A stretch of 40,311 nucleotides of DNA from a bacterium (GTDB lineage Bacteria > Patescibacteriota > Minisyncoccia > Phycocordibacterales > UBA9973): assembly GCA_021824345.1 (NCBI GenBank), contig JAKAKW010000006.1, positions 74,257-114,567 on the forward strand. The letters are read 5' to 3'. A program made the translations under genes and the position numbers. A model generated the notes under the pieces. The model was not told the DNA's origin. It did no database searches and saw nothing but the letters and a program-made list of their open reading frames with translations. This document shows, one piece after another, positions 8,531-37,957 of this stretch. The number at the start of each line of letters is the position of its first letter. The stretch's first letter is position 1.

Positions 8531-11527
8531 ATGATTTCGAGGATATACGTAGCGCAGGAATCGGGAGACAGCCGGGAGAAAATTCTCTTGAAATCGTGGC
8601 GCGAGCTGGGCCTCTCCGGCAAGCCGAGCGCAGTTTCAATACTTGATTCATACATTCTGGATTCAGATCTCACAAAGGATGAATTGGATAAGGCCGGCAG
8701 GGCCCTGGCCAATTCTGTCGTTGAGGAATACTTCGTAAACGAACTGCCAACCAAGAAAAAATTCTCTTACTGCGTGGAAATCGGATTTCTTCCTGGCGTA
8801 ACCGACAATGTCGGAAATTCCGCCCGGGAAACTCTGCAGGATCTTCTTGACCAAGACCTTAAAGTGTACAGCTCTAAGGCCTTTTTAATTTCCGGAAAGC
8901 TCGGGAAGAATGACGCGGAAAAAATCGCTTCATCAATGTATAATCCGCTGATTGAACGTGCATACATTGCGACCGGCAAGGAATTGGCAAAGGTGAAAAC
9001 GCTCCCGCTGAAAGCGCCGGTGGTAAAACTTGCCGAAAGAAAGCCGGTTATCAAAATATCGCTGAACGTGCCTGATGCGGAGCTTGAGAAAATCGGGAAA
9101 GAAGGAATCATGGATCCGGACGGCACTCGCCGGGGACCGCTTGCCCTGGATCTTGAATCCATGAAAACAATCCGGAAATATTTCAAGGAACTCGGCCGTG
9201 ATCCCACCGATGTTGAACTGGAATCTCTCGCTCAGACGTGGTCCGAGCACTGCAAGCATACGATTTTTGCCGATCCGATCGATGAAATCAAGGACGGCTT
9301 GTACAAGACATATATAAAAGGCGCCACCAACCTGATTCGACAACGCAAAGGCAGCAAAGATTTCTGCGTTTCAGTTTTTTCGGATAATTCCGGTGCCATA
9401 GCTTTTGACGATGAATTTTTAATTACCCATAAGGTTGAAACTCACAACAGTCCATCCGCCCTGGATCCGTTCGGAGGAGCCATTACCGGCATAGTGGGAG
9501 TGAATCGCGATACCATGGGTTTCGGCCTGGGCGCCAAGCCGGTGGGGAACGTGTACGGTTTTTGCGTGGGAGATCCCGCCGACAAAAGGCCGCTTTATCG
9601 CGGAAAGAACAAACAGCAAAAAATGCTTTCCACAAAGCGGATAATGGACGGGGTTGTGAAAGGCATTAATGTAGGAGGAAACTGCTCCGGTATTCCGACA
9701 GTTTCAGGATTTATCAGATACGAAGACAGATATCGCGGAAAGCCTTTGGTTTTTGCCGGCACAGTGGGAATTATACCGCGCAAGGTTAACGGAAAGCTGT
9801 CGCATATAAAAAAGGCGGAGCCCGGAGATTATGCGGTAATGCTGGGCGGACGAGTGGGCGCGGACGGAATCCATGGGGCCACATTTTCTTCCGTTACAAT
9901 GGATTCCACTTCTCCGGCAACCGCGGTGCAGATAGGCGACCCCATCACCCAGAAGAAAATGAGCGACGCTTTGGTAAAAGAAGCGCGGGGGATGAATCTT
10001 TATGACAGTATTACCGACAATGGAGCCGGCGGGTTATCCTGTTCGGTGGCGGAAATGGCCAAGGAATCCGGCGGGGTGAAGGTTGATCTTGAAAAAGTTC
10101 CGCTCAAATATCCGGGGCTTCGTCCATGGGAAACTTGGATCTCCGAATCGCAGGAACGCATGACCCTGGCGGTGCCGAAGAAAAAATGGGAGGTATTCAG
10201 AAGGCTTATGGAAAACCGAGGGGTGGAAGCGACCATTGTCGGGGAGTTTACCGGAGGAAATGCCTGCCAGGTATCATATGAAGGAAAAAAAATAATGAAT
10301 ATGGATATGAAATTCCTTCATGACGGGCTTCCAAGCAAAAAACTTAAAACAGTCAGGCATGAAAAAAAGTACAAGGAGCCGAAGCTTCCTGCCGGATCCG
10401 CGCGCACCCAAATTTTTGAAAAGCTGTTCGGCACTCTTAATCTGGGAAGCTTTGCCTTCATCTCCGAGCAGTATGACCACGAAGTCCAAGGTTCTTCCGT
10501 GTTGAAACCTGTTTCTGGAGCGGGAAGAGTGAACACCGAGGCGCAGGTTTTCCGTCCGGTGCTTGGCTCGCCAAAAGGAGCGGTGCTTTCCATGGCGCTG
10601 TATCCGTTCTATGGAGACATAAGCACATACCACATGGCCGGAGCGGCGATAGATTCGGCTATTAGGAGCGCGGTATGCGCCGGAGGCAGTCTTTCCCGAC
10701 TGGCACTTTTGGACAATTTCTGCTGGTGCTCTTCCAATGAGCCGGAAAGGCTTGGCGAGCTCAAGGACGCCGTGAAGGCATGCTATGACTACGCCGTCGG
10801 TTACGAAACTCCTTTTATCTCCGGCAAAGACAGCATGTTCAATGATTTCAAAGGATACGACGAGAAGGGAAATCCAATAAAGATATCAATACCGCCGACC
10901 CTCCTCATTTCCGCCATTGGCGTGATGGACGACATTTCAAAAACTGTTTCCCCGGAATTCAAATCCGCCGGCGACCTTATTTTCCTGCTCGGCGAAACGA
11001 ATGACGAACTCGGAGCAGGCGAATATTACCGCATGCTGGCCAGTGAGCAAAAAAAACCATTTCGATCAAAATTAAAATCCGACACAGAGGTCGGAGATGC
11101 AATCGGCAATAACGTGCCCCAAGTGAACTGGAAAACAAACACAAAAACTTACCGCGCGCTGGAAAAAGCGATTGCAAAGGATTTGATAGCCTCGGCAATC
11201 TCCGTCAGCTCCGGCGGGCTGGCGATAGCCTTAGCCAAATCGGCTGTGGGAGGAATGCTCGGTTGCAATGCTTCAGTGGAAAATCTTCCGGGTAATGCCG
11301 ACACTGTTGACGCCAAGCTTTTTTCCGAAAGCCAGGGAAGGGCGGTGGTCAGCATAAATCCAAAGGACGCAAAAAGGTTTGAAAAAATCATGAAGGAGAA
11401 TGGAGCACACTTTGCCAAGATCGGCGTTGTTTCAAAAAATAGCGGATTTACAATAGACAAAGCGATAAAAACAGACGTCAAAAAGCTTCACGCCATCTAC
11501 CACAAATTCTCCGATTCGCAAAAATGA
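8531..11527 (+). CDS. purL: Phosphoribosylformylglycinamidine synthase, PurS-PurL fusion
   Basis: ATP-dependent amination of FGAR to FGAM. It is 998 residues, longer than the about 740-residue stand-alone PurL and shorter than the about 1,300-residue PurL with built-in glutaminase. Residues 1-170 look like two PurS-type units in tandem; the second has IGFLPGVTDNVGNSARETL, the PurS PGV-D-x-G pattern. The catalytic body follows, with TWSEHCKH, THKVETHNSPSALDPFGGA, TDNGAGGLSCSVAEMA and SGKDSM. Glutaminase is supplied separately by purQ one gene downstream. The 3' end overlaps the Cys-rich gene by 4 nt (ATGA). PurS fused to PurL is known in some lineages. Confidence 0.93.
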   Translation: MISRIYVAQESGDSREKILLKSWRELGLSGKPSAVSILDSYILDSDLTKDELDKAGRALANSVVEEYFVNELPTKKKFSYCVEIGFLPGVTDNVGNSARETLQDLLDQDLKVYSSKAFLISGKLGKNDAEKIASSMYNPLIERAYIATGKELAKVKTLPLKAPVVKLAERKPVIKISLNVPDAELEKIGKEGIMDPDGTRRGPLALDLESMKTIRKYFKELGRDPTDVELESLAQTWSEHCKHTIFADPIDEIKDGLYKTYIKGATNLIRQRKGSKDFCVSVFSDNSGAIAFDDEFLITHKVETHNSPSALDPFGGAITGIVGVNRDTMGFGLGAKPVGNVYGFCVGDPADKRPLYRGKNKQQKMLSTKRIMDGVVKGINVGGNCSGIPTVSGFIRYEDRYRGKPLVFAGTVGIIPRKVNGKLSHIKKAEPGDYAVMLGGRVGADGIHGATFSSVTMDSTSPATAVQIGDPITQKKMSDALVKEARGMNLYDSITDNGAGGLSCSVAEMAKESGGVKVDLEKVPLKYPGLRPWETWISESQERMTLAVPKKKWEVFRRLMENRGVEATIVGEFTGGNACQVSYEGKKIMNMDMKFLHDGLPSKKLKTVRHEKKYKEPKLPAGSARTQIFEKLFGTLNLGSFAFISEQYDHEVQGSSVLKPVSGAGRVNTEAQVFRPVLGSPKGAVLSMALYPFYGDISTYHMAGAAIDSAIRSAVCAGGSLSRLALLDNFCWCSSNEPERLGELKDAVKACYDYAVGYETPFISGKDSMFNDFKGYDEKGNPIKISIPPTLLISAIGVMDDISKTVSPEFKSAGDLIFLLGETNDELGAGEYYRMLASEQKKPFRSKLKSDTEVGDAIGNNVPQVNWKTNTKTYRALEKAIAKDLIASAISVSSGGLAIALAKSAVGGMLGCNASVENLPGNADTVDAKLFSESQGRAVVSINPKDAKRFEKIMKENGAHFAKIGVVSKNSGFTIDKAIKTDVKKLHAIYHKFSDSQK

Positions 11528-13260
11528 ACGCGGAAAAGAAAATATGCCAGAATTGTAAAAAGGAGTTCATAATTGAACCGGATGATTTCGGATTTTATAA
11601 TAAAATAGATGTTCCTCCGCCGACTTTTTGCCATCAGTGCCGTTTGCAAAGGCAATTGCTTTTTAGAAATAACAGAGTTTTTTATCGAAATAAGTGCGCC
11701 TTGTGTGGAAAGGAGGTATTAACAGTGTATAATCCCAACCAGAGCTTTGTTATCTACTGCAGAGAATGCTGGTTGTCGGACAATTGGGATCCTGTATCCT
11801 ATGGAAGGGATTACGATTTTTCAATTACTTTTTTTGAACAATTCCGCTCACTGCAGGCCTCAGTGCCTCGATCAAATTTATATCAGACCAATTTTATTTC
11901 AAGCGAATATTGCAATTACGGATTAGACTTCAAGGAAAGCTATCTGCTTTTTGGAGGATACAATAATGAAAGGGTGTATTTTGGGAACCAGGTATTTAAC
12001 TCTAAAGACTCGCTGGATATTGCTTTCGTCGAGAAGGCAGAGCTAAGTTATGAAATTTTTGAATGTAAAAGGACCAATAGAGTTTTTTTCTCGCATCATT
12101 CCGATGACTGCGTGGATTGCAGATATTTGATTGATTGCAATAATTGCCTCAATTGCTTTGGCTGTGTGGGTCTGAAAAAGAAGCAGTACTGTGCATTCAA
12201 TGAGCAGTTAACGCGCGAGGAATATGCAGATTTCATTAAATCAGAGAATCTCGGAAGCTATTCTGCGCATTTAAAATATCTTGAAAAGCTTAGCACCCTT
12301 GAAATGGACTTGCCACATCGCTACGCAAGGATATTTAAATCGGCAAGTTCGGACGGCGATGATTTATCCGAAGCGAAAAATACTCATTTTGCGTTTACTT
12401 CTCGCCAGGTTGAAGATTCAAAATTTCTGTTCTTTATACGAAACAACGTAAAAAACTGTTATGATAATTGTTTCCAGGGATTTAACAGCGAATTCCTTTA
12501 TGAAATTGCCCACGGGTTTGGAGGTTCAAATTCTGCATTCGGGGTAAGAAATCATTACAACCAGAGCGCATATTATTCCGAGGATTGTCATGACTGCCAA
12601 TATGTTTTCGGCTGCGAAGGATTAAGAAAAAAGAAATATTGTATTTTAAATAAGCAGTATTCCAAAGAGGAATATGAAAAATTAGTCCCAAAAATAATCA
12701 GCCAAATGAAAGATATGCCGCATAAGGAATTAAAAGGGACAATCTACACTTTCGGCGAATTCTTTCCTCCATCTCTTTCTCCGTTTGCCTATAATGAAAC
12801 TATTGCCCAGGAGTATTTTCCTCTATCAAAGGACGAGGCCCTTGCCTGCAATTTCAAATGGGAAGATCTCGAAAAGAGAAATTATCAGATCACCGCGGAA
12901 ACTAATAATTTGCCGGATCATATAAAAGACACGAGCGATGATATCACAAGCAAAGTGGTAGGCTGTGCCCATAAAGGTAAATGTAAGGAGCAGTGCACTG
13001 AGGCGTTTAAAATTACATCATTTGAGCTCCGATTCTATAAGCGCATGAACCTGCCTCTGCCCCGCTTATGTCCGAGCTGTCGGCATTTTCAGCGGCTGAA
13101 GCAAAGAAACCCGCTGAAGCTCTGGCACCGCCGTTGCATGTGTGAGAAAGCGGAGCATGGCCACTCCGGACCGTGCAAAGAAGAGTTTGAAACCAGCTAT
13201 TCACCAGAGAGGCCGGAGGTGGTATACTGTGAACATTGCTACCAAAAAGAAGTGTATTGA
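11524..13260 (+). CDS. Cys-rich double zinc-ribbon/solenoid protein, paralog A (in pur operon)
   Basis: Unrecognised 578-residue protein with about 34 Cys. An N-terminal 8-Cys module has Cys at 8, 11, 36, 39, 58, 61, 79 and 82, with the signature DDFGFY-x5-VPPPTFC-x2-CR. Two Cys-rich middle segments each end in a cap motif (GCVGLKKKQYCAFNEQ near 215 and GCEGLRKKKYCILNKQYSKEEY near 375). After a YxFGEFFP linker comes a C-terminal module (FYKRMNLPLPRLCPSCR, then LWHRRCMC, HGHSGPC and VYCEHCYQKEVY). The ends resemble zf-trcl-like probable zinc-binding domains; this is from memory. The gene overlaps purL by 4 nt and precedes purQ by 1 nt, so it is expressed with purine synthesis. It looks more AT-rich than purL, suggesting later insertion. 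Three paralogs lie at 32.7-38.0 kb. No function is known to me. Confidence 0.85.
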   Translation: MNAEKKICQNCKKEFIIEPDDFGFYNKIDVPPPTFCHQCRLQRQLLFRNNRVFYRNKCALCGKEVLTVYNPNQSFVIYCRECWLSDNWDPVSYGRDYDFSITFFEQFRSLQASVPRSNLYQTNFISSEYCNYGLDFKESYLLFGGYNNERVYFGNQVFNSKDSLDIAFVEKAELSYEIFECKRTNRVFFSHHSDDCVDCRYLIDCNNCLNCFGCVGLKKKQYCAFNEQLTREEYADFIKSENLGSYSAHLKYLEKLSTLEMDLPHRYARIFKSASSDGDDLSEAKNTHFAFTSRQVEDSKFLFFIRNNVKNCYDNCFQGFNSEFLYEIAHGFGGSNSAFGVRNHYNQSAYYSEDCHDCQYVFGCEGLRKKKYCILNKQYSKEEYEKLVPKIISQMKDMPHKELKGTIYTFGEFFPPSLSPFAYNETIAQEYFPLSKDEALACNFKWEDLEKRNYQITAETNNLPDHIKDTSDDITSKVVGCAHKGKCKEQCTEAFKITSFELRFYKRMNLPLPRLCPSCRHFQRLKQRNPLKLWHRRCMCEKAEHGHSGPCKEEFETSYSPERPEVVYCEHCYQKEVY

Positions 13261-13261
13261 T

Positions 13262-14086
13262 ATGAAGAAAGTAACGGCCCAAAAATCCCGAGTATCCTCA
13301 AAAAAGAAAACTAGAGCCATGAAGCGCCATGTTAAGCCAAGAGCCATGGTGCTTTCAGGTTATGGCCTCAATTGCGAGGAAGAGACGAAGTTCGCTTTTG
13401 ACTCTGCCGGAGCAAAGGCCGACATTGTGCATATCAATGACATCATCGCCAAGCCCGGAATGCTTTCCGAATATCAGATCCTGGCTTTTCCGGGAGGATT
13501 TTCCTACGGGGATGACACCGGCAGCGGAAAGGCCTACGCCAATAAATTTAAAAATCATCTGAAAAAACAGCTGGATGAATTTCTGGCCAAAGACACGCTG
13601 GTCATCGGCATATGCAACGGATTTCAAATCCTTACAAACCTGGGAGTCCTGCCCGGCGCGCTGGCAGTGAACAAAAATGGCCGATATATCGACCGCTGGG
13701 TGGATCTTAAAGCGGTGGGAAAAAGTCCGTGGCTTTCCGGCATCAAAAAAATTTCGTTGCCGATTGCTCACGGCGAGGGAAGATATGTCGGAAATAAAAA
13801 GGATGCGGGATTCGTATATGAAGAAGGGGAGATATGCAAATTCCAGAATTTGGAAAAAAACCCGAACGGATCCATGCATGATATAGCGGGTGTCCTCGGA
13901 TATAAGGGAAGAGTTCTGGGCATGATGCCCCATCCCGAGCGAGCCATGTTCTTTCACCAGAGCCCAATGTGGCAGAAGGAAAAGGAAAAAATAAAAAGAA
14001 GCGGAAAATCCGCCTCAAAAATCGCCCAGAAGGAAGGGGAAGGGCTGCAGATATTCAAGAACGCCGTAGAATATTTCAAAAAATGA
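13262..14086 (+). CDS. purQ: Phosphoribosylformylglycinamidine synthase glutaminase subunit
   Basis: Class I glutamine amidotransferase that hydrolyses glutamine to supply ammonia to PurSL. The nucleophile Cys is in GICNGFQILTNLG and the His/Glu pair is in MMPHPERA. The oxyanion-region motif FPGGFSYGDD is also typical. The ORF track extends to 13142 inside the Cys-rich gene. I place the start at ATG 13262, 1 nt after that gene's stop, which leaves a Lys/Arg-rich extension of about 28 residues before the conserved MVLSGYGLNCEEE. ATG 13319 or 13346 are alternatives that would remove it. The gene is split from purL by the Cys-rich paralog and overlaps purF by 4 nt. Confidence 0.92.
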   Translation: MKKVTAQKSRVSSKKKTRAMKRHVKPRAMVLSGYGLNCEEETKFAFDSAGAKADIVHINDIIAKPGMLSEYQILAFPGGFSYGDDTGSGKAYANKFKNHLKKQLDEFLAKDTLVIGICNGFQILTNLGVLPGALAVNKNGRYIDRWVDLKAVGKSPWLSGIKKISLPIAHGEGRYVGNKKDAGFVYEEGEICKFQNLEKNPNGSMHDIAGVLGYKGRVLGMMPHPERAMFFHQSPMWQKEKEKIKRSGKSASKIAQKEGEGLQIFKNAVEYFKK

Positions 14087-15483
14087 ATGAATTGAATGAA
14101 AAATGCGGAATTGTCGGCATATACGACGGCAAGGATACGAGTATTTCCAAATATGCCTTTTTTGCCCTGTTCGCTCTTCAGCACAGAGGGCAGGAAGCTT
14201 CCGGCATTTGCACCAGCGACGGAAAAAAAATGTATAACCATAAAGGCCCAGGGCTTGTTTCCGCCGTATATACCGAGGATGCCATTAATTCTCTAAAAGG
14301 ACATATTGCCATAGGACATAACAGATATTCTACCTCCCAGGGGAGCGCTATAGCCCACGCCCAACCGGTCATGGACGAGGAGAATGGCTTTGCGCTGGCA
14401 CATAATGGCAATCTGCCGAGCGTCAAAGCGCTTGAAAATTTTTTATCAAAGGAAGGAGCCTTAAAAGAAAATCGCTCCGATTCTGAATTGATTGCGGATG
14501 CCATAAGCCTCTATCTTGCCCGCGGAAAATCTTTGCCGGAAGCGGTGAAGGAAGTTTTCCCGCTTTTGACCGGGGCATTTTCCTTGGTAATGATGACAAA
14601 AGATACTCTGGTCGGCGTGCGCGACAAATACGGTATGCGCCCGCTGTCATTGGGAAAGCTCGGAGAAGGATATGTTATCGCTTCTGAAACGTGCGCCATT
14701 AAAACAATCGGGGCAGTTCCGGAACGAGACGTGAAAGAAGGGGAGATGATAGTGATAAGCGAGAAAGGGATGGAAAGCGTGCAATTAGCCGAGCCCGAGC
14801 CAAAGCATGATATTTTTGAGTACGTATATTTTGCAAGGCCCGACAGCGTGCTGGCGGGCAAACTGATATACGAAGTGCGTAAAAATCTTGGAAAAGCCTT
14901 GGCGAAGGAGTGCGAATTGGAGGTGGACGCGGTTGTGCCTGTGCCGGATACGGCCATACCCGTTTCTTTGGGATTCTCGGAGGCCTCCGGCATACCCATT
15001 GAAATGGCATTGGTGAAGAACAGATACGTCCATCGCACTTTTATTGAACCTAGCCAGGAATCCCGCAGGCATAGCGTGGCGCTCAAACTTGTTACCTTGC
15101 CGGAAGTTTTAAAAGGCAAGAAAATTGCGGTCATTGATGATTCAATAGTGCGCGGGCATACGAGTAAAAGGCTGATAAAAACATTGTTTGATGCCGGAGC
15201 AAAGGAAGTGCATCTTTTGATATCCTCGCCTCCCGTGCGTTTTCCGGATTTTTACGGAATCGATACTCCAATGCAAGGGGAGCTGATTGCTTCCCATATG
15301 ACAGTGGAGCAGATCCGTGAATTTTTGGGCGCCACAAGTTTGCATTATCTTTCCCTGGACGGCCTGATCAATTCTATCGGCCTTCCGAAGGATACGCTTT
15401 GCACTTCATTCTTTACCGGAGAATATCCTATTGATATACTGGAGAGGAAAGGCGAGGTGAACTATGATGTCCCCAAATCATAA
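14083..15483 (+). CDS. purF: Amidophosphoribosyltransferase
   Basis: First committed step of purine synthesis: PRPP plus glutamine to phosphoribosylamine. True start is ATG 14083 (ATGA overlap with purQ), not the track's 13969. The N-terminal Ntn-hydrolase domain begins MNELNEKCGIVGIY. Cys8 would be the nucleophile after removal of a short 7-residue propeptide, as in the Bacillus-type enzyme. GHNRYSTSQGS and the AHNGNL segment are present. The C-terminal phosphoribosyltransferase domain carries the PRPP loop IAVIDDSIVRGHTS near residue 350. Length of 466 is normal. Feedback sites cannot be judged here. Confidence 0.95.
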   Translation: MNELNEKCGIVGIYDGKDTSISKYAFFALFALQHRGQEASGICTSDGKKMYNHKGPGLVSAVYTEDAINSLKGHIAIGHNRYSTSQGSAIAHAQPVMDEENGFALAHNGNLPSVKALENFLSKEGALKENRSDSELIADAISLYLARGKSLPEAVKEVFPLLTGAFSLVMMTKDTLVGVRDKYGMRPLSLGKLGEGYVIASETCAIKTIGAVPERDVKEGEMIVISEKGMESVQLAEPEPKHDIFEYVYFARPDSVLAGKLIYEVRKNLGKALAKECELEVDAVVPVPDTAIPVSLGFSEASGIPIEMALVKNRYVHRTFIEPSQESRRHSVALKLVTLPEVLKGKKIAVIDDSIVRGHTSKRLIKTLFDAGAKEVHLLISSPPVRFPDFYGIDTPMQGELIASHMTVEQIREFLGATSLHYLSLDGLINSIGLPKDTLCTSFFTGEYPIDILERKGEVNYDVPKS

Positions 15484-16216
15484 AAGGAATCACCATTTAC
15501 GATTGGCTCTGCTCATTTCAGGCGGAGGCACGACAATGGCCGCGATTATCAAGGCCTGCAAAGACGGCCAACTGCCGAAGGTGGAGCCGGCATTGGTAAT
15601 ATCCAGCACCTCATCAGCCGGTGGCCTGGAGAAGGCTGAAAAGCTGGGCATACCAAAAAAAGATATTTTGGTCATAAATCCGAAGGATTTTAAGGACGCC
15701 GAAGAATTCGGCAGAGAGATTATAAAGGAATGCGAAAAGCGAAGGGTTAATTTCGTCGGCCAATACGGCTGGATGGCCCTGACGCCCGGGAACGTAATCA
15801 AAAAATTCTCCGGCCATATTGTGAATCAGCACCCCGGGCCTTTAGACAACGGGCGTCCCGACTTTGGCGGAAAAGGAATGTACGGCATGCGGGTGCACAA
15901 AGCTAGGCTGGAATTTGTCCGCGCTACCAAGCGCGACTACTGGACGGAAGCGACCGCCCACAGGGTTACAAGCGAATTCGACAAAGGGGAAGTGGTGAAA
16001 AGAAGGCAGATGTCAATTTCTCCGAATGAAAGAACAGAGCATGTGAAAAAGCGCCTTCTTCCCGTCGAGCATGAAGTGCAAATTGAAACTCTGCTCGATT
16101 TCAGCGAGGGGGTGGTTCATCCATTCAAAAGAAAGGATCCGCTTGTAAGGCCGGAGGAAATGAAAATTTTGGAAAAATGCAAAGCGATTGCCCGTAAAGC
16201 TTATCCGAACGGCTGA
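15464..16216 (+). CDS. purN: Phosphoribosylglycinamide formyltransferase, divergent
   Basis: Transfers a formyl group from 10-formyl-tetrahydrofolate to GAR. Formyltransferase-fold features are LLISGGGTTMAAI near the start, VGQYGWMALTP, and the active-site VNQHPGPLDNGRPDFGGKG, giving the Asn-x-His pair. The EFDKGEVV segment carries the likely catalytic Asp. At 250 residues it is longer than E. coli PurN (212) and has a distinct HPGPLDNGRPDFGGKGMYG loop in place of the usual HPSLLP, so it belongs to a divergent subgroup. It overlaps purF by 20 nt; ATG 15467 is an equally possible start. Confidence 0.85.
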   Translation: MMSPNHKRNHHLRLALLISGGGTTMAAIIKACKDGQLPKVEPALVISSTSSAGGLEKAEKLGIPKKDILVINPKDFKDAEEFGREIIKECEKRRVNFVGQYGWMALTPGNVIKKFSGHIVNQHPGPLDNGRPDFGGKGMYGMRVHKARLEFVRATKRDYWTEATAHRVTSEFDKGEVVKRRQMSISPNERTEHVKKRLLPVEHEVQIETLLDFSEGVVHPFKRKDPLVRPEEMKILEKCKAIARKAYPNG

Positions 16217-16221
16217 ATAAT

Positions 16222-17523
16222 ATGGAAGAGAACAAACTGAAAATTTTGATTGTGGGCGGAGGGGGCAGGGAACATGCCGTCGGCTGGAAGGTGGCTCAGT
16301 CTCAGAGAATTGAAAAAATATTTTTTGCTCCCGGAAACGCCGGCACCGCGGAAATCGGAGAAAACATACCTGTAAGCGCGACAGACATACCCGCCTTGCT
16401 TGAATTCGCCAAGAGGGAAGGCGTCGGTCTGACCTTGGCGCTTCCGGACGATCCGCTGGCGCTCGGCATAGTTGATGAATTCAAAAGGGCCGGTTTACGC
16501 ATTTTCGGCCCAACCCAGTACGCCGCCAGACTTGAATCTTCCAAGGCGTTTGCCAAAAGCTTTATGGAAAAGTACGGCTTGCCTACGGCAAAATTTAAAA
16601 TTTTCACAGATGCGGACAAAGCAAAAGAGCACCTAAAAAGTCATTCACTGCCGGTTGTAGTAAAAGTGTCAGGTCTTGCCTTGGGCAAGGGCGTCTTCAT
16701 ATGCCAGACGCTTGAGGAGGCGGAGGATGCGGTAGAAAGGATAATGGTGGAAAAACAATTCGGAGAGTCCGGAAACGAGATCGTTATTGAAGAGTTCCTT
16801 ACAGGTCCGGAAATTTCCATTCACGCCTTCTCCGATGGAGAGCACTATTCATTGTTCCCCGCTGCTCAAGACCACAAGCGCGCCGGGGAAGGAGACACAG
16901 GTCCGAATACGGGCGGAATGGGAACAGTCGCGCCATTGCCTTTTGTGACTTCAAAAATCTTAAAAGAAATTGAGGTGAGGATCGTTCGGCCAGCATTAGT
17001 GGGCATGCGCGTGGAAAATTCTTCTTTTCAGGGAGTGCTGTACCCGGGATTGATACTGACCGAAGATGGTCCGAAAATTCTTGAGTTCAACGCCCGCTTC
17101 GGCGACCCGGAAACCCAAAGCTATATGCGCTTATTGGACTCCGACATTTTGGATATCATTGACGCATGCATTGATGGAACGTTAGATAAAACGGAGATAA
17201 ATTGGAAAAAAGAGTCGGCTTGCACGGTGGTGCTAGCTTCAGGCGGGTATCCCGACAAGTACGAAAAAGGGAAAGTAATATCTGGCATTGAAGAAGCGGA
17301 AAAGGACGAACGGGTAAAAGTTTTTCATGCCGGCACTATTAAAAGCGGAGACGGAAAACTGCTCACGAACGGCGGAAGGGTGCTGGGGGTGAGCGCAACC
17401 GGAGCCAATCTTGAAGATGCGCTCAAGACCGCCTATGATGCAGTAGGCAAAATTTCTTTTGAAGGAATGCAGTATCGCCGGGATATCGGCAAGAAATCTC
17501 TTTTGACATTTAATAATACATAA
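16222..17523 (+). CDS. purD: Phosphoribosylamine-glycine ligase (GAR synthetase)
   Basis: ATP-dependent joining of phosphoribosylamine and glycine, pathway step two. The N-terminal loop is VGGGGREHAVGWKV. The ATP-grasp domain contains VVVKVSGLALGKGVFIC, DHKRAGEGDTGPNTGGMGTVAP and EFNARFGDPETQ, all PurD landmarks. Length of 433 is normal. It begins 5 nt after purN and is followed by purE after 14 nt, keeping the operon tight. It uses a product of purF that is chemically unstable, so co-expression in one operon makes sense. Confidence 0.95.
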   Translation: MEENKLKILIVGGGGREHAVGWKVAQSQRIEKIFFAPGNAGTAEIGENIPVSATDIPALLEFAKREGVGLTLALPDDPLALGIVDEFKRAGLRIFGPTQYAARLESSKAFAKSFMEKYGLPTAKFKIFTDADKAKEHLKSHSLPVVVKVSGLALGKGVFICQTLEEAEDAVERIMVEKQFGESGNEIVIEEFLTGPEISIHAFSDGEHYSLFPAAQDHKRAGEGDTGPNTGGMGTVAPLPFVTSKILKEIEVRIVRPALVGMRVENSSFQGVLYPGLILTEDGPKILEFNARFGDPETQSYMRLLDSDILDIIDACIDGTLDKTEINWKKESACTVVLASGGYPDKYEKGKVISGIEEAEKDERVKVFHAGTIKSGDGKLLTNGGRVLGVSATGANLEDALKTAYDAVGKISFEGMQYRRDIGKKSLLTFNNT

Positions 17524-17537
17524 TTTAAACTCATTTT

Positions 17538-18059
17538 ATGGATACAAAAGCATTAGTTGGCATAGTAATGGGATCAGATTCGGATTTGGAGGTGATATCC
17601 GAGGCGGCCAAAGTAATGGAGGAATTCGGGATTCCTTATGAAATCACAGTCGTCTCCGCGCACAGAAGCCCGAAGCTCGCTCATGAATTCGCCACTAGCG
17701 CAAAGTCCCGAGGATTGAAGGTTCTTATTGCGGGCGCAGGCGGAGCCGCCCATTTGGCCGGCGTTATGTCCAGCATGACTCAATTGCCGGTAATAGGAAT
17801 ACCGGTGAAAGCAAAGACCTTGGACGGCTTGGATTCACTCCTTTCCACTGTTCAGATGCCGCCGGGAGTGCCTGTCGCAACGGTTGGCATAAACGCTGCA
17901 AAAAATGCAGGATTGCTTGCGGTGCAAATTCTTGCACTCAATGATAAAGAGCTTGAAGCAAAACTGTCCGCCTATAAGGAGAAGCTGGAAACGGGAACGG
18001 GAGAAAAGGGAAAGAAACTTTCCGAGCTGGGATACAAAAAATATCTTGATGCAAAATGA
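17538..18059 (+). CDS. purE: N5-carboxyaminoimidazole ribonucleotide mutase, class I PurE
   Basis: Rearranges N5-CAIR to CAIR. The 173-residue protein has the PurE landmarks GIVMGSDSDLEV, VVSAHRSPKLAHEF, IAGAGGAAHLAGV and VQMPPGVPVATVGI. The AGAGGAAHLAG form is the class I type, which normally depends on PurK to make N5-CAIR. No purK is in this window and none is fused. It overlaps the following M24-fold gene by 4 nt, suggesting coupled translation of an apparently unrelated protein. Confidence 0.93.
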   Translation: MDTKALVGIVMGSDSDLEVISEAAKVMEEFGIPYEITVVSAHRSPKLAHEFATSAKSRGLKVLIAGAGGAAHLAGVMSSMTQLPVIGIPVKAKTLDGLDSLLSTVQMPPGVPVATVGINAAKNAGLLAVQILALNDKELEAKLSAYKEKLETGTGEKGKKLSELGYKKYLDAK

Positions 18060-32735: not shown

Positions 32736-34475
32736 CTAATACACTTCCTTGTTGTAACAATCCTTGCAGTAGATGATTTCCGGCCGCTCCGGCGCGTAAC
32801 TCGTCTCAAATTCATTTTGGCACCGGCCGGCGTGGCCATGGCTCCCCTTCTCGCACATGCATTGGCGATGCCAGAGCTTCATGGGGTTGCGGCGTTTCAA
32901 ACGAGAATTATGCCTGCACCAGAAGCACCTTCTGGGCAGAGGTATTTCCATTTTTCGGTAAAAAGCTAGCTCATTTTTCGCGATTTTGTAATTTCTCTTG
33001 CAATCAACGCAAGCAAGAACTTCATCTAGAATTGCATCGGTTATATCGTTAATGCTTTCAGGAATGTTTTTAGGTTTGATCGTTTCCTTGCCTAATGTGT
33101 GCTGAACGCCTTCTTGCCAATTATATCCTTTTTCGCGCGCCTCCTCTCTAGAAATAGGCAATTGCTCCATTGCGCAACTCTCATTATATCCGAAATATGA
33201 AAGCTCGATCGGAAAATATTCGCCGTACTTATATTTGATCCCGGCTTTGTCTACGTATGGCATTGCTTCCATCTGCTCAATAATTTTTCTCACCAACTGC
33301 TCGTACTCTTCCTTGGAATACTGCTTATTAAAAATACTGTAATTCGAATCACGAAGCCCTACGCAGCCGAAGCAGTGTTTGCAATTATGGCAATGGTGGC
33401 AATATCGCACATCCTGGCTTTTTACGGAAAAAAGGCCGAAAAAATTCATCTGAGAATGATCCCCAGTGACGCACTCATAACATTCCGACGCGCCGCCGGT
33501 CATGGTCACATCGAAAGAATCCTTCACAGGGTCGTTGACTCCGCCTGTATATTCGCCATATCTGCAGTTCTCAAGGTTTTTTCCGACAAAACAGCTTTTC
33601 ACGTTTTTGGAATACGAAATAATGTCTCCGATGACGTTGTCAGTATTGTGAAAATTATCGGCGTGTTTGCGGGGATATTTCAATATTAGATTTTTGTATT
33701 CATTTTCCGCCTTTTCCATTCCGGAATAGGTATCCAGCCTGTAATCTTTTAATATTTTTTCATACTCTTCCTCGGAATATTGCTTATTCTTGAAATGAAA
33801 CTTCTTGCCACGAAGCCCGGCGCAAAGGAAACAGTTGGAACAATTCCAGCAATCATAAGTGAATTGCGAATCGATTAGGTTCAGGCAATACTGGGAATAT
33901 TTTGCCCTGTACGATAAGCTGGTGGTAATGCTTTCATACAACTGTTCGCTTTTTGATCTTATATTCATGCAATCCACCAGATCTCTGCCGGCTAACAGAT
34001 AAAAGCTGTACATGGTATTCTCCGTGTGCCATCCCGAAAAACACATGTAACAATTTTTTGAAAACCACCAATCGTGGGTATATTCGCAATTCAAGCTGGC
34101 AATGCCGTCATCATTCACAATGGCCATGTGCGGCACTGATTTCATTAACGCAGCAAATTGGGCGAAAAACGGCTTAGAAAAATCATAATCGCGGCCGTAA
34201 CTCTTCGGATTCCATTTATCGCTCCACCAACATTTATTGCAATAAACGATAATACCAGATTCTGAAGAATAAATGGAAATAACGGATTTCCCGCATAGCT
34301 CGCATTTGCGATTGTAAAGCGACATATTGTTTCTCCAAGCCCAACGCCTCAACCTCCGGCACTCCGGACAAAAAGTCGGCGGAGGCACGCCGATTTTCTT
34401 GTAAAACCCGAAATCATCCGGCTCTATGATGAAATCCTGTTTGCAGTTCCCGCATTGTCGTGTTTCGCTTTGCAT
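32736..34475 (-). CDS. Cys-rich double zinc-ribbon/solenoid protein, paralog B
   Basis: Third gene of the tandem. The track begins at 34511, but ATG 34475 gives MQSETRQCGNCKQDF, matching the other paralogs, and leaves 2 nt after paralog C. The 579-residue protein has N-terminal Cys at 8, 11, 36, 39, 58, 61, 79 and 82, as in the other three. Solenoid segments end in GLRGKKFHFKNKQYSEEEY and GLRDSNYSIFNKQYSKEEY, so the caps are shared but Cys are partly lost. After YKYGEYFPIELS comes the C-terminal module FYRKMEIPLPRRCFWCR, LWHRQCMCEK, HGHAGRC and IYCKDCYNKEVY. The linker before it has CVDCKRNYKI, replacing the CTEAFKI form of A and D. Function unknown. Confidence 0.85.
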   Translation of the reverse strand: MQSETRQCGNCKQDFIIEPDDFGFYKKIGVPPPTFCPECRRLRRWAWRNNMSLYNRKCELCGKSVISIYSSESGIIVYCNKCWWSDKWNPKSYGRDYDFSKPFFAQFAALMKSVPHMAIVNDDGIASLNCEYTHDWWFSKNCYMCFSGWHTENTMYSFYLLAGRDLVDCMNIRSKSEQLYESITTSLSYRAKYSQYCLNLIDSQFTYDCWNCSNCFLCAGLRGKKFHFKNKQYSEEEYEKILKDYRLDTYSGMEKAENEYKNLILKYPRKHADNFHNTDNVIGDIISYSKNVKSCFVGKNLENCRYGEYTGGVNDPVKDSFDVTMTGGASECYECVTGDHSQMNFFGLFSVKSQDVRYCHHCHNCKHCFGCVGLRDSNYSIFNKQYSKEEYEQLVRKIIEQMEAMPYVDKAGIKYKYGEYFPIELSYFGYNESCAMEQLPISREEAREKGYNWQEGVQHTLGKETIKPKNIPESINDITDAILDEVLACVDCKRNYKIAKNELAFYRKMEIPLPRRCFWCRHNSRLKRRNPMKLWHRQCMCEKGSHGHAGRCQNEFETSYAPERPEIIYCKDCYNKEVY

Positions 34476-34477
34476 GA

Positions 34478-36184
34478 CTAATACACTTCCTTGTTGTAGC
34501 ATTCCTCGCAATAAATTGTCTCCGGATTTTCCGGCGGATATGTGGTTTCAAATTCGTTCAGGCATCCTTCGCGCATGCATTTGCGGTGAAAAAGCTTTAA
34601 AGGATTTTTCTTTTCCAGACGGGAATAACACCGGCAATTCGGGCACATCGCAGGCAGTGGTATTGCGTTTCCACGATAGAACCCGAGCTCGGCCTGGGTG
34701 ATTTTAAAAGCCGATGTACAGCCATGCGCGCACTTTCCCGCATGCGCGCATTCTATAACCTCATTCAATATGGCATCGCCGACATCTTTAATGTTCGAAG
34801 GAATATCTTCATTCTTCATGGTGATACTGTAATTGCGCTCTCCCTGTTCTTTCCAATGCAAGCCGGCTTCTTTCGCTTTCTCATGGTCTAAGGGATAAAA
34901 TCGCTGGGCGATAGTTTCATTGTAGGCATAAGGAGCGAGATCGTACGGGAAAAACTCCCCGTAGGAAAACACTCTCCCCTTCCCGTCTACGTATGGATTT
35001 TTACTCATATCCATGACTATGCTTTCCTTCAGGCTTTCATAATCTTCTTTTGAGTACTGTTTGTTTAAGATGCAATATTTTTTGCTCTGTAATCCTTCGC
35101 AGCCGAAAAGAAAGGCCGAGCTCTTGCACATTTCGCAATATTCCAGGTTGTTGGAACCGTCCACCACGCTGGAAAATTTAATATTGGAAACTTCTTCCGG
35201 CCCGATGGATTCGTAAATAAATTCGCTGGAACCCATGCCGTAGGCGTCATGAATCTCCTTTGAAGAAAACACCCATACCGAATATCTTGCGTTTTCCAAA
35301 TCGTATCCGTCAAAAACAGCTTTGCAGTTCCTGGCGTTTTCCAGATGGTCTCCGGTGGAATTGCGGCAGTTGATCAGCTTGGCGTATTTATGCGGAGCCT
35401 CTTTTTTCATTTTCTCAAACTTCTGCGAGAGCTCGTCCACCGTCTTTCGATCGCCCAGGTCCAGCGCGCTCATTCTTTTTTTAAATTCATCCTTGGAAAG
35501 CTTTTCACCAAAAAATATGTCCGAGCTTCCGCGCTGATTGACCACTCCGCATGAATTCTGGATATTTCGGCAATCGGAAACGAAGGCGCAGTCTATCGCC
35601 GCTTCCGATTCTTCCGCATAACGGGAGTTGTAGGATTTTTCCACATTGAAACATTCGTACAGATTTTCAGAATAGTGGACGTATTCTCCATCAATGCTTT
35701 TTTTCATTTTTACCGCGTAGGAAATGTTCGTGCAGTCTTCCGAATCTCGGATGGCGAAACATAAATAGCAATTTTTGTTGCTGTATGATTGGTTTGTATA
35801 TGGAGAATTGTGGCACTGCACCGTCCATATTCCCAAACGCGGAACCTTCTGCTGGAGTTCCTTAAATTGCTCAAAAAAATTCCTGCCTGAATCATATTCT
35901 GCCCCATAGGACATAGGGTCCCAGCCGTCTCCATACCAGCAATCTTTGCAATATATGGTATATGGAGAATCCTCGGGATATAAGGCGATGAATGAAGCGC
36001 CGCATTTGTCGCATTTGCGCTTGTACATGGTACGTTCATTGCGCCAAATATACCGCCTCTGCGCCCGGCAATCCGGACAAAAAGTCGGAGGAGGCACTTT
36101 CATTTTTTCGTAAAAGCCGAAATCTTCCGGATCAATCGTGAAGTCCTCCTTGCAGTTCTGGCAGTTTTTTTTCTCCGCTCTCAT
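34478..36184 (-). CDS. Cys-rich double zinc-ribbon/solenoid protein, paralog C
   Basis: Second gene of the tandem, 568 residues. The N-terminal 8-Cys module keeps identical spacing (MRAEKKNCQNCKEDF, FGFYEKMKVPPPTFC). It is the most diverged paralog. The first cap motif is eroded (GVVNQRGSSDIFFGEKLSKDEF) and the C-terminal module lacks the HGHxGxC loop, reading CMREGCLNEFETTYPPENPE instead. The second cap (GCEGLQSKKYCILNKQYSKEDY) and YGEFFPYDLAPYAYNETIAQ linker are intact. Its first codons are almost identical in DNA to paralog D (66 of 67 nt), unlike the rest. It starts 27 nt after paralog D ends. The ending CYNKEVY is shared with B. Confidence 0.85.
   Translation of the reverse strand: MRAEKKNCQNCKEDFTIDPEDFGFYEKMKVPPPTFCPDCRAQRRYIWRNERTMYKRKCDKCGASFIALYPEDSPYTIYCKDCWYGDGWDPMSYGAEYDSGRNFFEQFKELQQKVPRLGIWTVQCHNSPYTNQSYSNKNCYLCFAIRDSEDCTNISYAVKMKKSIDGEYVHYSENLYECFNVEKSYNSRYAEESEAAIDCAFVSDCRNIQNSCGVVNQRGSSDIFFGEKLSKDEFKKRMSALDLGDRKTVDELSQKFEKMKKEAPHKYAKLINCRNSTGDHLENARNCKAVFDGYDLENARYSVWVFSSKEIHDAYGMGSSEFIYESIGPEEVSNIKFSSVVDGSNNLEYCEMCKSSAFLFGCEGLQSKKYCILNKQYSKEDYESLKESIVMDMSKNPYVDGKGRVFSYGEFFPYDLAPYAYNETIAQRFYPLDHEKAKEAGLHWKEQGERNYSITMKNEDIPSNIKDVGDAILNEVIECAHAGKCAHGCTSAFKITQAELGFYRGNAIPLPAMCPNCRCYSRLEKKNPLKLFHRKCMREGCLNEFETTYPPENPETIYCEECYNKEVY
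36091..36157 (-). repeat. Near-identical 67-nt block shared with paralog D, copy 1
   Basis: Compared base by base with 37864-37930, one mismatch in 67 nt. It encodes the start of the N-terminal zinc-ribbon module (NCKEDFTIDPEDFGFYEKMKVPP region). Identity at synonymous sites points to recent duplication or gene conversion restricted to the module, since the downstream parts of the two genes are very different. Confidence 0.8.
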
Positions 36185-36211: not shown

Positions 36212-37957
36212 TCAGTAAACTTCTTTTTGATAGCATTCCTCGCAATATACCATTTCCGGCCGCTCCGGCGCGTAGCTTGTTTCAAATTCTTTTTTGCACC
36301 GGCCATCGTGTCCGTGACTTCCCTCTCCGCACATGCATTGGCGGTGCCAGAGCTTGAATGGGTTGCGCTTAGCCAGGCGCTCGTAATGCCGGCAATTCGG
36401 GCAAAGATGCGGAAGAGGAAGATTCATCCGGCGATAAAAGGCGAGTTCTTCGGGAATGATTTTAAACGCTTCGGTACAGCCGGCCCCGCACTTTGCAGGG
36501 TGTTCTCCAATATCATGATGTTCGCACTCGACTACTTTGCCGACAATGGAATCATCAGCATCTTCAATGCGAGAAGGTATGTCCGAGGATTTGATGTCGA
36601 TGGCATAATTCCTGTCATCCTTTTCCTTCCAAGAATATCCCCGGGCAACCGCCTCCTCTTTGGAAAGCGGAAAAAACTCCGCAGCTACTGATTCGTTATA
36701 GCAGAAAGGAGAAAGTTCTACCGGGAAATACTCGCCGTATTTGTACATTCTTCCGTTTTTGTCCTTATACGGCATATCATTCATTTGCTTGATGATTTTC
36801 GGAAGAAGCGAGTTGTATTCCTCTTTGGAATACTGCTTGTTAAATATGCAGTATTGCTTGCCTCTTAATGCAATGCATCCGAAAAGGTTTGAGGATCCCG
36901 AACAAAAATCGCAATAAGTCAGATCCGATCCTTCTCCGCAAGTGTTTGAAAACATGCTTCTTTGCACTTTCCAAAAACCCAGATAGTCATAGCACATTTC
37001 CAGATACTCGCAGTAGTTGCTGTCATAAACATCCTTAGCATGAATCAATCGCACGCTGTAACGGGTATCCTCCGCCTCCTTGACATCAAAACAGTTTTTT
37101 GTATTTTTGGATTCTACGATATGATCCCCGGAAACATCCTTGCATTGTATAGTGGTGGCAAAACGATGCGGCGTTTCCGCTTTCACTTTTTCAAATTTTT
37201 TCTGTATATACAATAGCCCCTCATATCCCTTTGCAAGAAACTTTTCTTTTTCTTTTTGGAAATCATCCTTTGAGTATGCCTGATTGAAAATATGATATTC
37301 CTTGTTCCGCAAGCCGGCGCATCCAATGCAGTCATGACAATTCTTGCAATCATAGCAATGCAGGAGTTCATAGGAAGCGGTGCACTCCTGGCAAAACGAG
37401 CACCTTGAAAGCTTTTCGCAATCTATGCATTCGTAGCAATATTCCGATTCCCGCGCAAGGTAAGTATCCACGCAAAATTTAGATTCATACGGACAGCCGT
37501 ACATGCAATCCTCCACCTCGATGGAACCGAAGCATAAATAACAATTCTTGCCGTCCGCTACATAATTGCAATAATCGCTGTTTTTTGTATTTGTGTTGCG
37601 AAGGTTCGGCCTGGGAATCACATTTAAAAGTTCTTGGAACTGCGCAAAAAACGGTTTGGAAAAATCATATTCTTTGCCAAAACTGGCCGGATCCCACTTG
37701 TCGCCCCACCAGCATTGACTGCAATAAATGGGAAAATGCGAACCTTCTGCATACATGGAAATAACTTGTTTCCCGCAAAGCTCGCATTTTCTCTTATAAA
37801 AATTCCGCTCGTTTCGAACGGCCATCCGCCTCTGCAATCTGCATGCAGAGCAAAACGTCGGCGGAGGCACTTTCATTTTTTCGTAAAAGCCGAAATCATC
37901 CGGATCAATCGTGAAGTCCTCCTTGCAGTTTTGACAAGTTTTAGTTTCCGCCTGCAT
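36212..37957 (-). CDS. Cys-rich double zinc-ribbon/solenoid protein, paralog D
   Basis: First gene of the tandem and the most Cys-rich, about 45 Cys in 581 residues. The N-terminal 8-Cys module has Cys at 8, 11, 36, 39, 58, 61, 79 and 82. The first middle segment (about 130-225) can be cut into repeats of about 22 residues with C-x2-C and C-x3-C pairs (NCYLC, DCMYGC, YCYEC, RCSFC, HCYDC, NCHDC), ending in GCAGLRNKEYHIFNQAYSKDDF. A PHRFA linker leads to a second segment ending GCIALRGKQYCIFNKQYSKEEY, then YKYGEYFPVELSPFCYNES and a C-terminal zinc module with HGHDGRC. The repeat suggests a beta-solenoid stacked with Cys; this is inference. An upstream hairpin separates it from the carboxypeptidase gene. 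Confidence 0.87.
   Translation of the reverse strand: MQAETKTCQNCKEDFTIDPDDFGFYEKMKVPPPTFCSACRLQRRMAVRNERNFYKRKCELCGKQVISMYAEGSHFPIYCSQCWWGDKWDPASFGKEYDFSKPFFAQFQELLNVIPRPNLRNTNTKNSDYCNYVADGKNCYLCFGSIEVEDCMYGCPYESKFCVDTYLARESEYCYECIDCEKLSRCSFCQECTASYELLHCYDCKNCHDCIGCAGLRNKEYHIFNQAYSKDDFQKEKEKFLAKGYEGLLYIQKKFEKVKAETPHRFATTIQCKDVSGDHIVESKNTKNCFDVKEAEDTRYSVRLIHAKDVYDSNYCEYLEMCYDYLGFWKVQRSMFSNTCGEGSDLTYCDFCSGSSNLFGCIALRGKQYCIFNKQYSKEEYNSLLPKIIKQMNDMPYKDKNGRMYKYGEYFPVELSPFCYNESVAAEFFPLSKEEAVARGYSWKEKDDRNYAIDIKSSDIPSRIEDADDSIVGKVVECEHHDIGEHPAKCGAGCTEAFKIIPEELAFYRRMNLPLPHLCPNCRHYERLAKRNPFKLWHRQCMCGEGSHGHDGRCKKEFETSYAPERPEMVYCEECYQKEVY
37864..37930 (-). repeat. Near-identical 67-nt block shared with paralog C, copy 2
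   Basis: Partner of 36091-36157; 66 of 67 bases match. Located in the 5' part of paralog D, encoding the zinc-ribbon signature. Confidence 0.8.

Follow-up and report, generated by a model that had tools for sequence, protein, structure and literature searches.

Gene D and its paralogs in the window

The window, a stretch of 40,311 nucleotides from a reduced genome of Patescibacteria (G000), contains gene D and three paralogs (A, B, and C). D encodes a protein of 581 amino acids with 45 Cys, of which 26 fall within residues 116-375; it starts with a zinc cap, a solenoid, and helices, followed by a second solenoid, a helix, a linker, and another zinc cap. The features, with the evidence for each, are:

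36212-37957 (-): gene D, whole open reading frame; homologs are open in the same genome and in other genomes
37613-37957 (-): N-terminal cap, residues 1-115, with a treble-clef-like site (C8/C11/C36/C39) and a zinc ribbon (C58/C61/C79/C82); Cys conservation, weak zf_Tbcl/zf_Tbcl_2 matches in relatives, pLDDT 95+
37292-37579 (-): solenoid 1, residues 127-222; Cys register, lag 12, DSSP bridges
37172-37276 (-): two helices C-terminal to solenoid 1, residues ~228-262; AlphaFold2 helices at residues 230-242 and 244-261, pLDDT ~88-94
36848-37135 (-): solenoid 2, residues 275-370; duplicate of solenoid 1 by hhalign, lag 12 best
36548-36832 (-): helix at residues 378-394 and linker up to residue 470; pLDDT 92-99
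36215-36526 (-): C-terminal cap, residues 478-581 (C519/C522/C541/C554/C572/C575); hhalign detects homology with the N-terminal cap, six Cys kept in 130 of 139 members
34478-36184 (-): paralog C, 568 amino acids, in tandem with D; 47% identical to D
32736-34478 (-): paralog B, ~580 amino acids, ATG at 34478, in tandem with C; 47% identical to D
11524-13260 (+): paralog A, 578 amino acids, within a purine operon

The tandem D-C-B is flanked on the same strand by scpA-scpB-carboxypeptidase and mraY-ftsW-murG-gltX, and paralog A lies in the order purL - A - purF - purN - purD - purE. This run of genes for de novo purine synthesis (purL, purF, purN, purD, and purE; positions 8531-18059) is, to our knowledge, unusual for a reduced genome of Patescibacteria. 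The closest relatives of A in other species adjoin dnaJ, which, together with the dispersal of copies over unrelated operons (purine, scpAB/mraY), suggests that the genomic context of the family is partly mobile.

Searches with D against the profiles of Pfam and NCBIfam gave no match above cut-off, and a sequence profile search of the PDB returned just one LIM-domain chain (E 0.058), which aligned over the C-terminal cap. Among viral contigs, phages, and plasmids, the full protein found no relative except one cap-like match, and a search of a literature collection yielded no description of this protein family.

Coil length and probable core packing of the solenoids

The Cys statistics and the AlphaFold2 model of D are based on a family alignment of 139 members. 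An earlier note on this DNA had pointed out Cys repeats in D, and their pattern is not random: all 12 Cys in residues 156-225 share one register modulo three (permutation P = 5e-5). However, the note had cut residues ~130-225 into units of about 22 residues, typical of one turn of a right-handed parallel beta-helix, and this period is ruled out by the alignment. Among the 139 homologs, Cys pairs of segment 1 that are separated by multiples of three residues occur at 2.4-4.0 times expectation (4.0 times for separations of 12 and 3, 3.8 times for 9), all others at 0.02-0.25 times, and a separation of 22 is depleted to 0.11 times. The self-similarity of the profile over all residues peaks at lag 12 (0.52 in segment 1, 0.48 in segment 2), is approximately zero at lag 22, and keeps its optimum at lag 12 when the inward columns are left out. 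Each of the proposed units thus comprises two coils of 11-12 residues, and the coil has 12 residues rather than ~22.

When the alignment is read at lag 12, solenoid 1 divides into eight coils, each 11-12 residues long (first residues 127, 139, 151, 162, 174, 186, 198, and 210), and solenoid 2 into as many (first residues 275, 286, 298, 310, 322, 334, 346, and 358), with one 11-residue coil per segment and an inward residue at every third position of each coil. The Cys columns keep a single register modulo three in each stretch, with slips at residues 151-159 and 275-283; the register of the Cys pairs is weaker in segment 2 than in segment 1. Instead of being restricted to one face, as the note had expected, the Cys line the inward corners on every side of the coil. 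From coil to coil, Lys and Glu alternate at a single position (K137/E149/K160/E172 and K284/E296/K308/E320; 67-97% conserved), and this ladder would be expected to form salt bridges between stacked coils.

The existence of a Cys-lined solenoid, which was part of the same proposal, is supported by the registers, the Lys/Glu ladder, and AlphaFold2 models. Structure prediction, suggested at the time as a check, gave a confident overall model of D (pTM 0.91, mean pLDDT 89, with most of the caps above 90), but its solenoids are weaker, with pLDDT values around 70 in solenoid 1 (~68-77) and of ~75-85 in solenoid 2, and with short DSSP bridges spaced by roughly twelve residues. The model of a homolog from Giovannonibacteria (L065) with 9 middle Cys has the same pTM (0.91) and a mean pLDDT of 90.9; residues 170-230 of its solenoid 1 reach 92-96, with a DSSP bridge at about every third residue. 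Since this Cys-poor member keeps the solenoid in the model, the solenoid appears to be independent of the Cys. Foldseek searches of the PDB with both models found nothing at E <= 0.001, and the solenoid of the D model had no fold-level match in a viral library.

The most likely role of the middle Cys, judging from their pattern of substitution, is packing of the buried core rather than formation of metal or disulfide ladders. The solenoid interior is filled with Cys, Ser, Val, Leu, and Ala, and the Cys are replaced one at a time by Ser, Val, Ile, Leu, Thr, or Ala. Co-occurrence is absent between the middle Cys columns of the 139 members (mean phi ~0), whereas it is almost complete in the positive control, the zinc ribbon C61/C79/C82 (phi 0.97-1.00). 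Also Cys at positions i and i+6 show no positive co-occurrence (mean phi -0.08 and -0.06), and the co-occurrence test thus speaks against ladders of metal sites or disulfides. Side-chain volumes at i and i+3 are negatively correlated in the inward columns (-0.31 and -0.15) and uncorrelated (~0) in the outward columns. Independent loss, the nature of the substitutes, and the compensating volumes together argue for Cys as a core filler.

Coils of 12 residues are found in beetle antifreeze proteins (Tenebrio/Dendroides; PF02420; PDB 1EZG), which resemble the D family also in having an inward residue at every third position and Cys in the core. Nevertheless, PF02420 does not match D at E <= 1, and the differences are substantial: Cys at i/i+6, the disulfide partners in the antifreeze proteins, show no co-occurrence in the D family, the family has zinc caps and no apparent signal peptide, and the organisms are unrelated. 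The antifreeze repeat is TCTxSxNCxxAx (PMC8038014), and its ice-binding TxT ladder is missing from the D family, where TCT occurs only twice in 139 proteins; an antifreeze function was rejected on this ground.

The same three-residue Cys register is present also in PHROG 15341, a group of hypothetical proteins of Campylobacter phages (CPt10, CP20, and CP21), which is matched by a double solenoid from locus L130 (E 8e-19) and by D (E 7e-4). The phage proteins differ from the D family in being short (141 amino acids in CPt10), in lacking caps, and in having Cys at nearly every inward position. For the CPt10 protein (L140:4007-4432), the depositors had recorded weak Pfam matches to insect antifreeze proteins. 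The best, although insignificant, Foldseek matches of the models in the PDB are left-handed beta-helices (LpxA, GlmU, and gamma-carbonic anhydrase), but their coil has 18 residues with a hexapeptide repeat, whereas the signal of the D family is strongest at lag 12, not at 6 or 18.

Internal duplication, paralogs, and gene neighborhood

Profile comparisons show that the N- and C-terminal halves of D are duplicates of each other. The second Cys segment ahead of the C-terminal cap, which the earlier note had already pointed out, extends over residues ~275-370; hhalign identifies it as a homolog of the first (99.9%, E 4.5e-37) and likewise pairs the two parts of the caps (cap1/capC1 99.2%, cap2/capC2 97.2%). 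The site C8/C11/C36/C39 is complete in 138 of the 139 homologs, and C61/C79/C82 are gained or lost as a set in 137 of them; 64 members have lost the second zinc ribbon of the N-terminal cap (residues 58-82) as a whole. Both caps resemble the zinc-finger proteins zf_Tbcl (PF13451) and zf_Tbcl_2 (PF23477). Short stand-alone relatives of the caps pass the Pfam cut-offs, whereas the long proteins, with two solenoids between their caps, mostly remain below them (17.6 versus a cut-off of 24 for B, 19.6 versus 27 for A, and no match for D). At L130:4043-5268, cap and double solenoid are encoded by two separate, adjoining genes.

The genome of the window (833 kb in 16 contigs; completeness 99.97%) harbors 26 family copies, of which 25 are open; at ~1.73 kb each, they account for about 5% of the genome. 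The remaining copy (C3:37819-39528) has an internal TGA and is either a pseudogene or an assembly error. Relatives were present in 34 of the 35 congeners sampled (1 to 20 copies each) and at more than 500 places in a profile scan of GTDB genomes, of which 77 loci were kept. Nearly all of these are titled Patescibacteria and fall into Nomura-, Giovannoni-, Lipton-, Jorgensen-, Staskawicz-, Sungii-, Magasanik-, Kaiser-, Moranii-, Peregrini-, and Peribacteria; one locus titled Burkholderiales (L061, JAMPXW010000002.1) carries arrays of the Nomurabacteria type and probably stems from a mislabelled MAG. In a broad sample of the phylum (193 genomes), about 12 encode the full-length family, usually with at least five copies each.

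In a tree built from 74 members, the closest relative of most G000 paralogs belongs to another species; the copies are therefore old and have been kept distinct. Among eight ortholog groups, identity at outward solenoid positions is 0.70 between orthologs and 0.31 between paralogs, whereas that of the caps is 0.69-0.73 and 0.48-0.49, respectively; because the orthologs had been selected by their overall similarity, these identities are informative as a contrast between domains and not in absolute terms. At the level of sequence identity, it is thus the rod that sets the paralogs apart, and the caps and the linker resemble each other more closely in all of them.

Adjoining family copies are co-oriented in 91 of 91 pairs, with a median gap of 24 nt. 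Their most common neighbors are VirD4/TrwB-like ATPases (PF10412; 31 genes at 24 of the 77 loci, without exception on the same strand), and gene order shows that the association between the two families extends to several lineages, including ten loci outside Nomurabacteria at which the ATPase gene adjoins the family. Among 169 immediate neighbors, 16 are VirD4-like ATPases, compared with ~0.6 expected by a statistic that ignores shared ancestry; of four distant genomes inspected, one (G104) lacks an ATPase in the vicinity of its family copies. A C-terminal ribbon of 14 of the 45 VirD4-like ATPases matches the cap profile of the family. The ATPase at L092:1878-4376 and its relatives look soluble and combine a C-terminal zinc ribbon with a long low-complexity tail. 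Most VirD4 homologs of Patescibacteria are located far from virB4 and have possibly been exapted (PMC12102498).

In the genus of G000, the family is also interleaved with hsp70 genes, in the order rpsI-grpE-[array]-dnaK-ATPase-[array]-ATPase-dnaJ (C3:15001-50000 of G000, which holds L032 and L033; also L038-L048). This arrangement is conserved across the genus and limited to it; dnaK, dnaJ, grpE, rpsI, and rpoA at this locus were named from their sequences, without a profile search.

Possible roles of the family

Our favored reading, which we put forward tentatively and at somewhat less than even probability, is that the members of the D family are specific adaptors that combine a variable recognition rod with constant zinc caps. 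Each of the ~26 copies would use its solenoid surface to bind a different partner, either a client protein or an RNA, and the caps would dock all copies to a shared machine. Candidates for this machine are the soluble VirD4-like ATPase encoded nearby and, within this genus, also the Hsp70 system; the proteins would in that case serve as assembly factors or as adaptors for specific substrates. Points against this reading are the partly mobile context of the family, the restriction of the Hsp70 association to a single genus, the genome (G104) with no ATPase close to its copies, and the modest pLDDT of solenoid 1 in D itself. It is possible, albeit rather unlikely, that they are interchangeable specificity subunits of a quality-control or transport machine of VirD4-like ATPase and Hsp70 that is peculiar to Patescibacteria. 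A reduced genome here devotes ~5% of its DNA to 26 diverged copies, kept distinct across species. If the solenoid surface were a recognition code and the caps a common plug, the family would be a new bacterial repertoire for modular recognition and would provide a concrete handle on the role of soluble VirD4-like ATPases in Patescibacteria; it would also extend the 12-residue coil to a large class of bacterial proteins with Cys as core filler.

The same combination of a diversified repertoire with constant ends, next to VirD4-like genes and in a phylum of epibionts (PMC12102498), might be expected of effectors or adhesins that are secreted via a VirD4-linked type IV system and stapled by disulfides, like the beetle antifreeze coil with its C2-C8 disulfides. 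We consider this improbable: signal peptides are not apparent, Cys six residues apart do not co-occur, no membrane anchor is evident at the start of the ATPases, the operons around the family serve housekeeping functions, and most VirD4 homologs lie apart from virB4. Equally doubtful is a function as regulators that bind DNA or RNA with their Arg-rich treble-clef and zinc-ribbon ends and derive their specificity from the solenoid. The conserved cap motif CPECRxxRRxxWRNERxLYKR, the best viral Foldseek matches of D (short stretches of zinc-ribbon and HNH proteins), and the ability of HerA/VirD4 ATPases to move DNA are consistent with nucleic-acid binding, but solenoid 1 carries a net negative charge (family mean -3.2), the caps are near neutral overall, and no known nucleic-acid-binding domain reaches threshold.

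Storage or wiring of metals or Fe-S clusters by stacked core Cys, as implied by the earlier suggestion of Cys ladders that bind many metal ions or clusters, is very unlikely. Members have up to 31 middle Cys, the near-continuous run C204/C207/C210/C213 has all four Cys in 82 of the 139 members and three or four in 131, and the Campylobacter phage relative carries Cys almost throughout its interior. However, the Cys columns substitute independently, volumes compensate, and segment 2 has mostly C-S-L-C at the positions equivalent to this run. Moreover, Cys-poor members retain the solenoid, as in the model of L065, and other Patescibacteria possess relatives whose solenoid is poor in Cys and stands alone, lacking zinc caps (L128:2876-3664 and L129:3490-4188). 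The C204-C213 run may nevertheless be a local site and hence an exception to the core-filler pattern.

It is least probable that a dispensable gene was amplified in tandem by a near-neutral process. This would agree with the tandem arrays, the internal stop in one copy (C3:37819), and the patchy presence across the phylum but not with the retention of distinct paralogs across species at 70% surface identity and of 25 open copies out of 26 in a reduced genome.
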